In this document: positions 13,810-18,005 of the stretch, one piece after another | How positions within the stretch are numbered: the first letter of the stretch is position 1 | How the letters are laid out: every line of letters starts with the position of its first letter | Assembly: GCF_003148495.1 (NCBI RefSeq) | Contig: NZ_QGGH01000001.1 | Coordinates: 1,012,347-1,076,346, forward strand | Direction: 5' to 3' | DNA length: 64,000 nt | Source of the DNA: Mesorhizobium loti | Lineage (GTDB): Bacteria > Pseudomonadota > Alphaproteobacteria > Rhizobiales > Rhizobiaceae | Notes under the pieces: generated by a model | Database searches by the model: none | The model's input: only the letters and a program-made list of their open reading frames with translations | What the model was told of the DNA's origin: nothing | Program-made: the position numbers and the translations under genes

Positions 13810-14706
13810 ATGGCGTTGGACTGGGACAAGCTACGCGTGTTTCACGCTGCGGCGGAGGCGGGGTCTTTTACCCATGCGGCCGAGACATTGCATCTGTCGC
13901 AATCGGCGATCTCGCGGCAGGTCAGCGCACTCGAGCATGATGTCGGCGTGCCGCTCTTCAACCGCCACGCCCGCGGGCTGGTGCTGACCGAGCAGGGCGA
14001 AATGCTGTTCCGCACGGCGCATGACGTGCTGATGAAGCTTGAGACCATCAAGTCACGACTGACCGAGACCAAGGACCGCCCGTCGGGCGTGCTTCGGGTG
14101 ACGACGACGGTGGGCTTGGGCGCCGGCTGGCTGACCGAGCGGGTGCAGGAATTCATCGAGCTCTATCCCGAAATCAGCCTGCAGCTGATCCTCGCCAACG
14201 AGGAACTCGACCTCACCATGCGCCAGGCCGACTGCGCCATCCGGCTGCGCCAGCCGCAGCAACCGGACCTGATCCAGCGCCGCCTGTTCACCGTGCATTT
14301 CCACCTCTACGCGGCGCCATCCTATGTCGCCAAGCACGGCAAGCCGGCTTCCGTCGCCGAGCTGAAGAGCCATCGCATCGTCACCTTCGGCGTGCCGGTG
14401 CCCTCGCATCTGTCGGAGCTGAACTGGCTTGAAACGGTCGGTGATTTCGACGGTGGACAAAGGGTGCCGACGCTGCAGATCAACGACATCTTGTCGATCA
14501 AGCGTGCGGTGCAGGGCGGTGCCGGCATCGCCATGCTTCCCGACTATGTGATCAGCAAGGACTCCGACCTGGTGCAATTGCTGCCGGAGACCGAAGTGCC
14601 GTCCTTCGACACCTATTTCGCCTATCCCGACGCGATGAAGAACCAGGCCAAGCTGCACGTGTTCCGCGATTTCATCATTGCCAAGGCCAGGAGCTGGTCC
14701 TTCTGA
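13810..14706 (+). CDS. lsrB: LysR-family regulator, LsrB/VtlR type
   Basis: A 298-aa LysR regulator. The HTH (FTHAAETLHLSQSAISRQVS, about 20-39) and ligand-binding domain (90-295) are complete. From memory, S. meliloti lsrB lies just downstream of trxB near the AbcR RNA genes, and the Brucella/Agrobacterium counterparts (VtlR/LsrB) activate AbcR2 and envelope or oxidative-stress functions; the same layout here supports the name. Redox sensing through several cysteines has been described for LsrB, but this copy shows a single Cys, residue 142. GAGGGG precedes the ATG. Confidence 0.8.
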   Translation: MALDWDKLRVFHAAAEAGSFTHAAETLHLSQSAISRQVSALEHDVGVPLFNRHARGLVLTEQGEMLFRTAHDVLMKLETIKSRLTETKDRPSGVLRVTTTVGLGAGWLTERVQEFIELYPEISLQLILANEELDLTMRQADCAIRLRQPQQPDLIQRRLFTVHFHLYAAPSYVAKHGKPASVAELKSHRIVTFGVPVPSHLSELNWLETVGDFDGGQRVPTLQINDILSIKRAVQGGAGIAMLPDYVISKDSDLVQLLPETEVPSFDTYFAYPDAMKNQAKLHVFRDFIIAKARSWSF

Positions 14707-15445: not shown

Positions 15446-15488
15446 TAGATGCTTGTTTCTTGGGCATGATGAGCACATATATAGATCA

Positions 15489-15602
15489 TCTCCTGGGCGC
15501 GTTCTCCTCCCATTAGCGCCCTAGAGTGTTCCCCTCTGGAGGTTAGCCTTAACAGGCACTTCCAATCAAACTCAGCCGGATCTTCGTTGATCCGGCTTTT
15601 TT
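15489..15602 (+). ncRNA. abcR: AbcR-like (alpha-r15) trans-acting small RNA
   Basis: A likely Hfq-dependent sRNA of about 114 nt, the size of AbcR RNAs, which repress many ABC-transporter mRNAs in rhizobia and Brucella. GGGCGC (15495-15500) pairs with GCGCCC (15516-15521) around a 15-nt loop containing CTCCTCCC, an exposed anti-Shine-Dalgarno motif typical of the family. A small AGAG/CTCT stem follows, then a terminator: AGCCGGATC / GATCCGGCT around TTCGTT and six T (15574-15602). Locus near lsrB fits. The 5' end is estimated from a TATATA at 15478. No open reading frame with a ribosome site is present. One copy only is seen. Confidence 0.72.
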
Positions 15603-15716
15603 GTTGCCTGTGCCCTGCTGGGTTGACCAAAAAATCCATCACAATTGCCACGTAACAGTGACATGTAACCTCTGGTAACATATCCCGGACGGCCGCGACC
15701 TGCTATGTACAGCATA

Positions 15717-15909
15717 GGACGCGGTGTGGTTCGAACGGGAGATGGGGGCATCACTCGTACGGCCCGGGCTCAGGCGGCTACCGCGTCCGAACCGTTTCTT
15801 CCGCCGAGTTCGGCGGCATCAAATGCGGCGGACCTGCCGTTTTACCTCCCAAGGAAACGGTCCGCGAACAAAACGACGTCCGGTCCCCGCCGGGCGTCGT
15901 TTTCTTTTT
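15717..15909 (+). ncRNA. Candidate structured noncoding RNA
   Basis: A noncoding stretch of about 190 nt with three consecutive helical domains. Domain 1: GGACGCGGT (15717-15725) / ACCGCGTCC (15780-15788), 9 bp perfect. Domain 2: ACCGTTTC (15791-15798) / GAAACGGT (15854-15861), enclosing CCGCCG-AGTT-CGGCGG and an ACCTCCC motif. Domain 3: AAACGACG (15871-15878) / CGTCGTTT (15895-15902) with inner CCGG/CCGG and a TTTTCTTTTT tract, an intrinsic terminator. No protein gene reads into it on the plus strand. I cannot assign it to a known family; 6S, tmRNA, SRP and RNase P signatures were not found. Promoter not identified. Confidence 0.5.
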
Positions 15910-15910
15910 G

Positions 15911-15934
15911 CCCCTCGAACCGAGGTTCGAGGGG
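15911..15934. repeat. Perfect hairpin after the EF-G-like gene
   Basis: CCCCTCGAAC-CGAG-GTTCGAGGGG, 10-bp perfect stem, lies 20 bp beyond the stop of the leftward EF-G-like gene. There is no T tract after it on that strand; the adjacent hairpin at 15871-15902 followed by TTTTGTT on the minus strand could act as the true leftward terminator. Confidence 0.7.
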
Positions 15935-15953
15935 TGTGTGATGGTGCTACGGG

Positions 15954-18005
15954 TCAGGCAGCCTTGCCGTCGGTGTTCATCGCCTCGTCGGCCAGACGGC
16001 CGGTGAGTTCGGCCATGTGGTCGAAGACGGCACGGTAGCTGGCGACGCCCGCGGTCGCCGAGCGCAACTCGATGATCAGGTCGCCGATCTCGGCTTGCGG
16101 CATGGTTGCCTCGACAACATCCCATCCCGGCCAGTCAGGCCGCGCGTCATAGCCGAGGATCTGGCCGCGCCGCTGCGGGATGAGTGCGATGATCTTCGAG
16201 GTGGCGTCGGACGGTGTGACGATCTCGACCTTCATCACCGGTTCCAGAAGCACAGGCGAGCACGCGGCCATGCCTTCCTTCATGGCCAGCCTGGCCGCCA
16301 TCTGGAAGGCCATGTCGGAGGAATCGACCGCGTGGTAGGAGCCATCCGACAGGTTGACGGCGACATCGACGACGGGAAAGCCGAGCGGCCCAGACTTCAG
16401 ATAATCGCGCACGCCGGTTTCGACCGACTGGATGTAGGTCTTCGGCACGACGCCGCCGGTGATGGTGTCGGTGAACTGGAAGCCGGAGCCGCGCGGCAGC
16501 GGCTTGATCTCGATCACCACGTCGCCGAACTGGCCATGGCCGCCGGACTGTTTCTTGTGACGGCCGCGCTGCTGCGCCGGTTTGCGGATCGTCTCGCGAT
16601 AGGGCACCGCCGGTGCATGGCCTTCGACCGGTATCTGGTTCTTGCCCTCCAGCCGTTCGCGCACGACACGCAGATGCATCTCGCCATGGCCCGACAGCAC
16701 GGTTTCGGCCGAGTCCTGGTTGTGACGCAGGCTGAGCGACGGGTCTTCCTCGGCCAGCCGCTGTATGGCGGCCGACATCTTCACTTCGTCCTTGCGCTCC
16801 TTGGGGCGCAGTGCGAAGGCGAAGACCGGTTGCGGCGGCTCGAACTGGAACAGCTGTTTGGCGCCGCCCTTGGCCGAGCTCAGCGTCTGGCCGGTCTTGA
16901 CCTCATCCAGCTTGCCCAGCGCCACCGTGTCACCGGCCTTGGCGATGGTCAGCTTGGACTGGTCCTTGCCGAGCATCCGGTAGATGCCGGAGACCTTGGC
17001 CGTGTCGCCGCCGGGCAGCCAGAGTTCGGAACCGTCGACGACCTGACCGGACAGGACGCGCGACACCGACAGCTTGCCGCCATGCGGCGTGTGGATGGTC
17101 TTCATCACCTGGACCAAGGTCGCGGCGCCGTCGGGTGCGCCGAGCCGCTTGCGGGTCGCCTCGATGTCCGGCGCGTCGTGGCGGATCGCCTTCAGGAGGC
17201 GCAGCACGCCGTTGCCCTTCTCGGCGGTGCCGATCAGCACTGGCGTTACCGCGCCGTCGCGCAGATCGGCGGCAAGGTCGTCGAAGATCGCGTCCTTGGG
17301 TGGCTCGATCTCCTCGAGCAGCTGTTCCATCAGATGGTCGTCATGGTCGGCCAGCGTTTCCAGCATGGAGAAGCGCGCCTCCAGTTCGCGCGCCTTGTCG
17401 TCGCCCGGTATCTGAGCCACCTCGCTTTCGGCATACTCGCGATAGATGTAGGCGCGCTCCAGCGCCAGATCGATCGAGCCGATGACGACGCCATCCTTGC
17501 GCAACGGAATCTGGCGCAACAGCAGCGGCACCGCGCTGGCCGGCTGCAGCATCTTCAGCGTGTCGCGCACGCCGGCGATTGCCTTGTCGACCTTGTTGAG
17601 GAACAGGATGCGCGGCACGCCGAGATCGTCGAGCTTGCGCATGATCAACTGCAGGGCGGGGATCTTCTTTTCGTCGGCCTCGGCTACGACCACCGCGAGG
17701 TCGCAGGCGGCCAGCACCGGCTCGGCCTCGAAGGAAAATTCGATGGAGCCGGGACAGTCGACGAAGGTGATCTGCTCGCCCATGAATTCAGCGGTGGCGA
17801 TTGTCGCCTCGACGCTCATGGCGTGGGCGCGCGCCTCGGGCGAATGATCCGAAACGGTATTGCCTGATGAAACGGGATTTTGTCGGGGAATTGAGCCCGT
17901 ACGGGCCAGTATGGCTTCGAGAAGTGTCGTCTTACCGCTTGCAAAGGGACCGACTATGGCAATGCATTTCGGTCCCGTGCGTCGTCCTCCGGCGCGAGTA
18001 CCCAT
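15954..18005 (-). CDS. Elongation factor G-like translational GTPase
   Basis: A 683-aa EF-G paralogue (the fusA2-like group), separate from the main fusA usually found in the str operon. The GTPase domain has G1 GPFASGKT (19-26), G3 DCPGSIEF in place of the usual DTPGHVDF, and G4 NKVDK. Domains II-V follow, including a domain IV stretch RGRHKKQSGGHGQFGDVVIE and domain V with AEIGDLIIELRSATAGVASY. The altered switch II suggests a specialised role such as ribosome recycling or quiescence (inference). GGAGGT precedes the ATG at good spacing. Isolated transcription unit. Confidence 0.88.
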   Translation of the reverse strand: MGTRAGGRRTGPKCIAIVGPFASGKTTLLEAILARTGSIPRQNPVSSGNTVSDHSPEARAHAMSVEATIATAEFMGEQITFVDCPGSIEFSFEAEPVLAACDLAVVVAEADEKKIPALQLIMRKLDDLGVPRILFLNKVDKAIAGVRDTLKMLQPASAVPLLLRQIPLRKDGVVIGSIDLALERAYIYREYAESEVAQIPGDDKARELEARFSMLETLADHDDHLMEQLLEEIEPPKDAIFDDLAADLRDGAVTPVLIGTAEKGNGVLRLLKAIRHDAPDIEATRKRLGAPDGAATLVQVMKTIHTPHGGKLSVSRVLSGQVVDGSELWLPGGDTAKVSGIYRMLGKDQSKLTIAKAGDTVALGKLDEVKTGQTLSSAKGGAKQLFQFEPPQPVFAFALRPKERKDEVKMSAAIQRLAEEDPSLSLRHNQDSAETVLSGHGEMHLRVVRERLEGKNQIPVEGHAPAVPYRETIRKPAQQRGRHKKQSGGHGQFGDVVIEIKPLPRGSGFQFTDTITGGVVPKTYIQSVETGVRDYLKSGPLGFPVVDVAVNLSDGSYHAVDSSDMAFQMAARLAMKEGMAACSPVLLEPVMKVEIVTPSDATSKIIALIPQRRGQILGYDARPDWPGWDVVEATMPQAEIGDLIIELRSATAGVASYRAVFDHMAELTGRLADEAMNTDGKAA

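Follow-up and report, generated by a model that had tools for sequence, protein, structure and literature searches.

What is encoded in the intergenic DNA at 15716-15909 of the window, the whole 64,000-nucleotide stretch of Mesorhizobium loti DNA that was analysed? A preliminary description had noticed long stems and a terminator there and had considered an undescribed sRNA outside the known families, a suggestion now supported by both covariation and an Rfam scan. On comparative evidence, 15716-15909 is a free-standing, structured small RNA gene on the plus strand, with its own terminator and probably its own promoter. It displays the features by which trans-encoded bacterial sRNAs are recognized, namely an intergenic position, a terminator, a conserved structure, and the lack of a conserved frame, together with a promoter predicted from conservation and spacing. 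The family is real and conserved, on strong comparative evidence, and is undescribed within the literature searched. The existence of its transcript, and with it transcription and function, we infer from comparative sequence.

The sRNA sits between the AbcR (ar15) sRNA gene (15488..15602, plus strand; Rfam RF02345 at 44.8 bits, gathering score 40) and an oppositely read, convergent EF-G-like gene (15954..18005, minus strand), an open reading frame named from its translation. Another open reading frame, at 13810..14706 on the plus strand, encodes a LysR-type regulator, named LsrB/VtlR at the AbcR locus.

Layout and conserved structure of the RNA gene

The predicted RNA is modular, and all of its elements are read from the plus strand. 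It probably starts at A15716, the A before GGACGCGG, and ends with the terminator tail at 15909. Domain 1 (D1, 15717..15788) is closed by a 9-bp stem, GGACGCGGT/ACCGCGTCC, that joins 15717-15725 with 15780-15788, and bears an apical hairpin (15736..15757) of the form CGGG-a-GATG(GGGG)CATC-a-CTCG with the core UGGGGGCA. A linker of variable length and sequence (15789..15824) leads into domain 2 (D2, 15825..15865), which consists of a conserved 5′ part, GCGGCGGACCTG, its partner GGTCCGC, and an ACCTCCC loop resembling an anti-Shine-Dalgarno sequence (15844..15850). The intrinsic terminator (15870..15909) is composed of a 15-pair stem (15870-15903) and a T-rich tail to 15909, and the U-rich tail TTTTCTTTTT is the sole Hfq-related feature visible in the RNA sequence. 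The terminator is a palindrome with T-runs on both strands; it may be bidirectional and also serve the convergent EF-G-like gene. Directly beyond it lies a perfect inverted repeat, CCCCTCGAACC/GGTTCGAGGGG (window 15911-15934), and a similar repeat occurs in 11 of 90 genus loci under a strict pattern.

Structural conservation was assessed in an alignment (A4) of 47 sequences hand-picked for diversity out of 107 copies, for which a structure of 40 pairs was written down; near-identical copies, a split copy, copies holding D1 only, L076 with its long linker, and seven later-found diverged forms were omitted. Standard pairs occupy 98.1% of the pair cells in these 47 homologs. Covariation among orthologs, the check named in the preliminary description, came out favorably: 16 of the 40 pairs and 60 cells have changed on both sides, compared with shuffled means of 6.4 and 10.4 and none of 500 shuffles reaching the observed values, and shifting the partners lowers pairing to 32-46%, figures to be read in the light of a structure derived partly from the same sequences, and so favored by one of the controls, and of kinship, which can also exceed shuffles. 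This support is drawn mainly from the terminator, with the closing stem and the apical hairpin also contributing.

The individual elements differ in how they have fared. The closing stem, already described as a perfect 9-bp helix, is present and conserved, with 100% of its cells paired and double-sided changes in two of its nine pairs; its counterpart in the diverged homolog L331 reads GGACACGG/CCGTGTCC. The terminator stem likewise stands, with 97.6% of cells paired across the 47 aligned sequences and, for 11 of its 14 pairs, at least one sequence showing a double-sided change. The 8-bp perfect stem proposed between them, ACCGTTTC/GAAACGGT (15791-15798 with 15854-15861), exists in the window but is not conserved, as 64.2% of its cells are paired compared with 62.5% in shuffles, 15 of 500 of which score as high. 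The conserved pairing of D2 joins GCGGACC (15828-15834) with GGTCCGC (15859-15865); it is kept in 98.5% of cells, with zero double-sided changes of its own in the 47 sequences. Thermodynamic folding gives -91.7 kcal/mol for the plus strand, against -78.3 ± 4.5 for 200 shuffles (z -2.96, one of 200 as good), and a z of -1.85 for the minus strand, with nine of 200 shuffles as good.

Domain 1 is the most constant part of the RNA, with 34 invariant columns over 61 distinct sequences. The hairpin core UGGGGGCA is found in 46 of the 47 aligned sequences and in 16 of 17 loci from other genera; among the latter, the core TGGGGGCA is likewise present in 16 of the 17 copies, L281 being one G short. The letters of the apical stem vary while pairing persists: most copies have GAUG/CAUC, L312 has AGUG/CACU, L282 has GGGAAUG/CAUUCCC, L224 has CUGG/CCAG, and L112 has CCGG/CCGG lower down. 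In the diverged forms, the part that remains is D1 with its G-loop, and L312 and L294 appear to hold D1 alone. Only the 5′ part of D2 is left in L282, L283, and L331, where it precedes the terminator and the partner is gone; GCGGCGGACCTG (window 15825-15836) is thus retained as sequence without a pairing partner in L282 and L283, and partly in L331.

Several single copies depart from this layout. The linker of L076 (genome G050) is about 60 nt longer than that of L070 and possibly contains an extra hairpin. L053 and L075 are two parts of one sRNA split across both ends of a single contig (G044, contig C9) whose ends resemble each other in inverted orientation, a pattern that would fit an insertion element within the linker between D1 and D2. 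Extra copies of D1 occur away from AbcR in L071 (G064, C4:128784-128973), L072 (G079, C41), and L073 (G030, C73, two copies); they are without the upstream box described below but have another upstream stretch in common. A groEL-like gene precedes the L071 copy, and integrase-like and MucR-like open reading frames lie near the L072 copy, all named from their translations. A switch between the terminator and the 5′ stem (GGACGC with GCGTCC of the terminator), noticed by eye, was dropped because the terminators of L067 and L077 have no GCGTCC string and the 5′ stem is still kept.

Upstream of the RNA, the box GTAAC-a-GTGAC-at-GTAAC-ctctg-GTAAC (15652..15679, plus strand) is a putative site of an OmpR-type response regulator, and the semi-conserved columns just upstream of AGGACGCG suggest a -10-like element, TGCTATGT (15701..15708, plus strand). 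Among 159 distinct upstream sequences, the box begins 64-67 bases ahead of the RNA's GGAC in 145 when the first match is used (142 with the last match), at 62 in five, and at 52-53 in two; the remaining seven, three of which are extra copies, have no match to the pattern. It is unique in its own genome with up to three mismatches. A sigma-70 scan found no -35/-10 pair upstream, which would fit an activator-dependent promoter. The box is likely bound by an OmpR-type response regulator, a class suggested by the repeats: such regulators usually have direct repeats spaced by some ten bases, according to the accessible portion of PMC9275681, and the GTAAC starts in the box are spaced 13 and 10. Among individual regulators, ChvI was rejected since its Sinorhizobium meliloti motif, as cited in the accessible text of PMC9731502, consists of GCC repeats and does not fit, and CenR since TGA-N8-TGA (PMC9275681, same portion) does not fit either; the accessible parts of the BvrR literature (PMC9491525; PMC10538546) hold no GTAAC motif that we could find.

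Distribution and genomic neighborhood

Within the genus, the sRNA is nearly universal. A blastn search with 15640-15960 matched 98 of 99 genus genomes, some over part of the query only, and all 96 of those with at least 90% completeness and at most 5% contamination; 90 genus loci were fetched for comparison. Across the family, 394 genomes from 109 genera were scanned with covariance models. A model of D1 (R1) matched 31 of them with E values no higher than 0.01, spread over 12 genera, and a whole-RNA model (R2, 190 positions) matched 34 with E values under 1e-12, drawn from those same 12 genera; with the limit relaxed to 0.1, the R2 scan returned 79 rows, many of them chance-like and several covering the terminator only. 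Among the matches listed (80 of at least 117 stretches, strict pattern), the sRNA is found in Mesorhizobium, Aminobacter, Pseudaminobacter, Aquamicrobium, and a few unclassified isolates or MAGs.

Weaker copies were sought behind the lysR gene in 40 further family genomes, picked mainly by lysR similarity and the lack of a strong match. The R2 scan of these regions gave credible copies in four, L327 and L331 at E of about 2e-5 and L312 and L340 at about 0.01, with the G-loop visible by eye in all four, and none in the other 36. Together with G385 (L282), G153 (L283), and G227 (L294), they make up diverged or eroded forms in seven further genera. Beyond the family, an R2 scan of 397 genomes of the order returned only weak rows, the best at E 2.4e-5, and an R1 scan of 240 genomes of the class, the source genome included, matched that genome alone; these covariance scans evaluate only a small number of candidates in each genome, and weak copies could escape them. 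The three best rows outside the family (L296-L298) were rejected, being without trxB and EF-G matches and showing LysR similarity in L297 alone, at 28%, as was a weak row inside it (L295) without trxB, LysR, or EF-G-type neighbors. A plasmid collection gave zero matches.

The genomic setting is well preserved. AbcR lies beside the sRNA in 85 of the 90 genus loci. Of the five exceptions, L071, L072, and L073 are the extra copies elsewhere, L075 is the far half of the copy that is divided between the two ends of a contig, and L078 is a 31-base chance match. In all 13 loci from other genera that were read at length (L279-L290 and L294), the sRNA is located after trxB and the lysR gene; an EF-G-like ortholog is present in 11 of the 13, at a distance that varies and sometimes exceeds 1 kb. 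The ar15 family scores at or above gathering in 11 of the 13 as well, L294 having instead a match to suhB, of the same clan, and L287 neither. For three further genera (L101, L136, L112), the lysR gene falls within the same 8-kb locus.

AbcR itself occurs in two to four tandem copies in L335, L337, L339, and L342, among the 40 lysR-anchored regions; L339 (G197) has four copies, and L285 (G162), which also carries the new sRNA, has three.

Of 116 family genomes, 114 contain an ortholog of the lysR gene, and in many genera AbcR occurs in the absence of this sRNA. On a lysR tree of 64 rows, in which 22 of 58 inner branches are open, presence and absence change 13 times, compared with a shuffled mean of 20.9. 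Such a patchy distribution would fit an old gene that has resided here and has been lost repeatedly.

Candidate partners of the G-loop and competing explanations

The two loops of the RNA have had different histories. The CCTCCC motif of D2 is present in 51 of 60 genus-level copies (alignment A2) but in only six of 17 loci from other genera, and one of those six, L282, has it in the linker rather than in D2. The idea that ACCTCCC could pair with ribosome sites, raised in the preliminary description, finds partial support in these counts. Pairing between the loops of D1 and D2 is unlikely to be a conserved function because CCTCCC is absent from 11 of the 17 other-genera loci and the G-loop core persists in 10 of these 11. 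By eye, the linker of L282 (G385), a copy that has lost the D2 loop, contains a small GATC-CTCCC-GATC hairpin with a C-rich loop.

The sRNA would most likely act by base pairing, and a candidate partner is encoded next door. The AbcR loop CTCCTCCCATT (15504..15514, plus strand) contains motif M1 (aSD1), and the AbcR segment GTTCCCCTC (15528..15536, plus strand) contains M2 (aSD2), the motifs being those of PMC5461406 and PMC8844928. As far as the accessible text of these two papers goes, M1 (CUCCCA) and M2 (GUUCCC) are required for regulation in Brucella (PMC5461406) and correspond to aSD1 and aSD2 in S. meliloti (PMC8844928), where AbcR governs many transport and metabolic mRNAs. The UGGGGGCA hairpin of D1 may mimic a Shine-Dalgarno-type target and pair with these C-rich motifs; read from the sequences, UGGGGG can pair with M1 at the cost of one G-U and GGGGGC with M2 at the cost of two. 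A regulator binding the box would turn the sRNA on, AbcR would be titrated or destabilized, and its repression of transport and metabolic genes would be relieved. The lineage-limited CCUCCC loop of D2 could, in addition, pair with ribosome-binding sites of mRNAs.

Pairing calculations lend this scheme a mixed picture. Among five partner segments, unequal in length, that of aSD2 gives the lowest duplex energy for all 17 hairpins (16 homologs and one extra copy), by margins from 0.9 kcal/mol up and of about 1 in L280, L340, L229, and L282. When the letters of aSD2 are shuffled, five of 13 hairpins reach p under 0.05; when the hairpin stems are reshuffled, two of 20 do so for aSD2 (both p 0.022) and none of 20 for aSD1, with mean z of -0.66 and -0.26, the hairpins being non-independent and one AbcR segment serving for all. 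Accessibility-aware predictions place the best site on the cognate AbcR at aSD1 (five) or aSD2 (six) in 11 of 11 loci. The predicted pairing is weak, at -3.6 to -7.2 kcal/mol; at least two of eight dinucleotide-shuffled AbcRs do better in each of the 11 loci, as do at least three of six in a separate run on five loci. Any G-loop would land on M1 or M2, because these are the open C-rich stretches of AbcR, and the G-U wobbles against them do not evolve into perfect pairs. Co-occurrence of the sRNA with AbcR carries little weight, since AbcR is nearly universal. Pairing of the G-loop with AbcR is accordingly best described as plausible and unproven.

We regard an independent sRNA gene whose G-loop binds and antagonizes AbcR as the best explanation, with a probability of roughly one in three. 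A fuller version is put forward tentatively: a two-RNA module kept by synteny, in which a response regulator bound at the GTAAC box would induce the G-loop RNA, which would in turn sequester the neighboring AbcR through its two anti-Shine-Dalgarno motifs and which, in Mesorhizobium and near relatives, bears an anti-Shine-Dalgarno loop of its own. A doubtful but serious competitor is an ordinary trans-acting sRNA whose CCUCCC loop in D2 pairs with the Shine-Dalgarno regions of mRNAs, D1 serving mainly to protect the 5′ end or to pair with C-rich mRNAs. The frequency of CCTCCC in the genus-level copies speaks for it, and AbcR1/2 and NfeR1 are known to act through anti-Shine-Dalgarno motifs, according to the accessible text of PMC8844928; the scarcity of CCTCCC in copies from other genera, set against the near-constancy there of the G-loop core, tells against it. 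Rather unlikely is a protein-binding RNA in which an RNA-binding protein recognizes the UG-GGGG-CA hairpin and has its activity titrated by the RNA. Its near-invariant loop and closing pairs above a covarying stem are what a site recognized by structure and letters together would look like, but the locus offers no linked candidate protein. We know of no such protein-binding hairpin motif in alphaproteobacteria.

The two remaining explanations dispense with a regulatory RNA or make it a message. A conserved DNA element combined with a bidirectional terminator of the convergent EF-G-like gene could account for the palindrome GATGGGGGCATC with its G-centre and for the T-runs on both strands, but it is very improbable in view of the double-sided changes in the closing stem, which lie 66-68 alignment columns apart, the near-constant spacing to the box, and the D1 copies distant from the EF-G-like gene (L071-L073). 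Most improbable is a short protein gene with the conserved start TG GGG GCA. The preliminary description was not strictly correct in reporting no open frame, given that open reading frames of 78 and 104 aa on the plus strand and of 115 and 60 aa on the minus strand cross or overlap 15717-15909, and NTG GGG GCA hardly varies. When the frame that begins at the conserved TGGGGGCA is followed in 32 homologs, however, its length ranges from 8 to 183 codons and its residues are conserved nowhere outside the constant hairpin, which leaves no conserved protein.

An antagonist of AbcR at its own locus would be of wider interest. The S. meliloti AbcR paper, in its accessible portion, names AbcR sponges as still to be searched for (PMC8844928), and AbcR matters in Brucella too. 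A conserved sRNA at the AbcR locus, with its own box and an AbcR-complementary G-loop, is a concrete and cheaply testable sponge candidate, and it adds a new RNA family to the annotation of Mesorhizobium, Aminobacter, and relatives.

Relation to known RNAs

The RNA falls outside the families catalogued in Rfam. The scan, suggested at the outset as a check, yielded no match for 15717-15909 at gathering score, and a known family was rejected for 15716-15909 at that score and again with the E limit raised to 10. The rows at E up to 10 (6C, FourU, ctRNA, RhlA thermometer, and BSnc120, with sodF on the minus strand) are all far below gathering; 6C RNA (RF01066), for instance, scores 23.3 bits (E 0.97) against a gathering score of 47. 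At the same threshold, neither AbcR/ar15 (RF02345), which matches only the neighbor at 15488-15602, nor MmgR/alphaR8 (RF00519) gives a row at the RNA. As for the AbcR motifs, which in that family are CUCCCA within the first hairpin and GUUCCC between the hairpins, 15716-15909 contains CCTCCC once, in D2, and GTTCCC zero times.

The openly accessible main-text literature on Mesorhizobium sRNAs yielded no prior description and one genome-wide study, of Mesorhizobium huakuii 7653R (PMC5596092). Its MH_s candidates are, like the new sRNA, intergenic and from the same genus, and were derived from conservation and RNA-seq; Table 1, in the accessible text, gives 40 of them by coordinates without sequences. 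In all 12 complete genomes compared, the new sRNA and speF share a strand, with the sRNA 238-428 kb farther downstream; in 7653R this distance corresponds to about 3.92-4.11 Mb on the minus strand, and Table 1 is empty between 3.49 and 4.35 Mb. From synteny rather than from compared sequences, we infer that the new sRNA is absent from the 40 candidates. MH_s25, of apt strand and size, was set aside because synteny speaks against it.

Among characterized RNAs, AbcR1/AbcR2 (alpha-r15, RF02345) shares with the new sRNA its intergenic region and strand, its own terminator, and a C-rich, anti-Shine-Dalgarno-like loop, which the Mesorhizobium form carries in D2; the new sRNA differs in its fold, its constant G-loop, and its own upstream box. 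MmgR/alphaR8 (RF00519, suhB) likewise has a C-rich anti-Shine-Dalgarno core, as in D2, but consists of a weak hairpin, that core, and a terminator, with no G-loop domain described in the accessible part of PMC12559287. The closest analogy in proposed mechanism is CrfA of Caulobacter, which, according to that same portion, sponges four alphaR8 sRNAs (SisA-D) by pairing a G/A-rich stem loop with UUUCCUCCCU (PMC12559287). The likeness, drawn from the published description of CrfA, lies in the proposed pairing of a G-rich loop with the C-rich core of an sRNA, and the partner families, ar15 and alphaR8/suhB, share Rfam clan CL00108; unlike CrfA, the new sRNA would have AbcR rather than alphaR8 as its partner, and it is encoded at that partner's locus.
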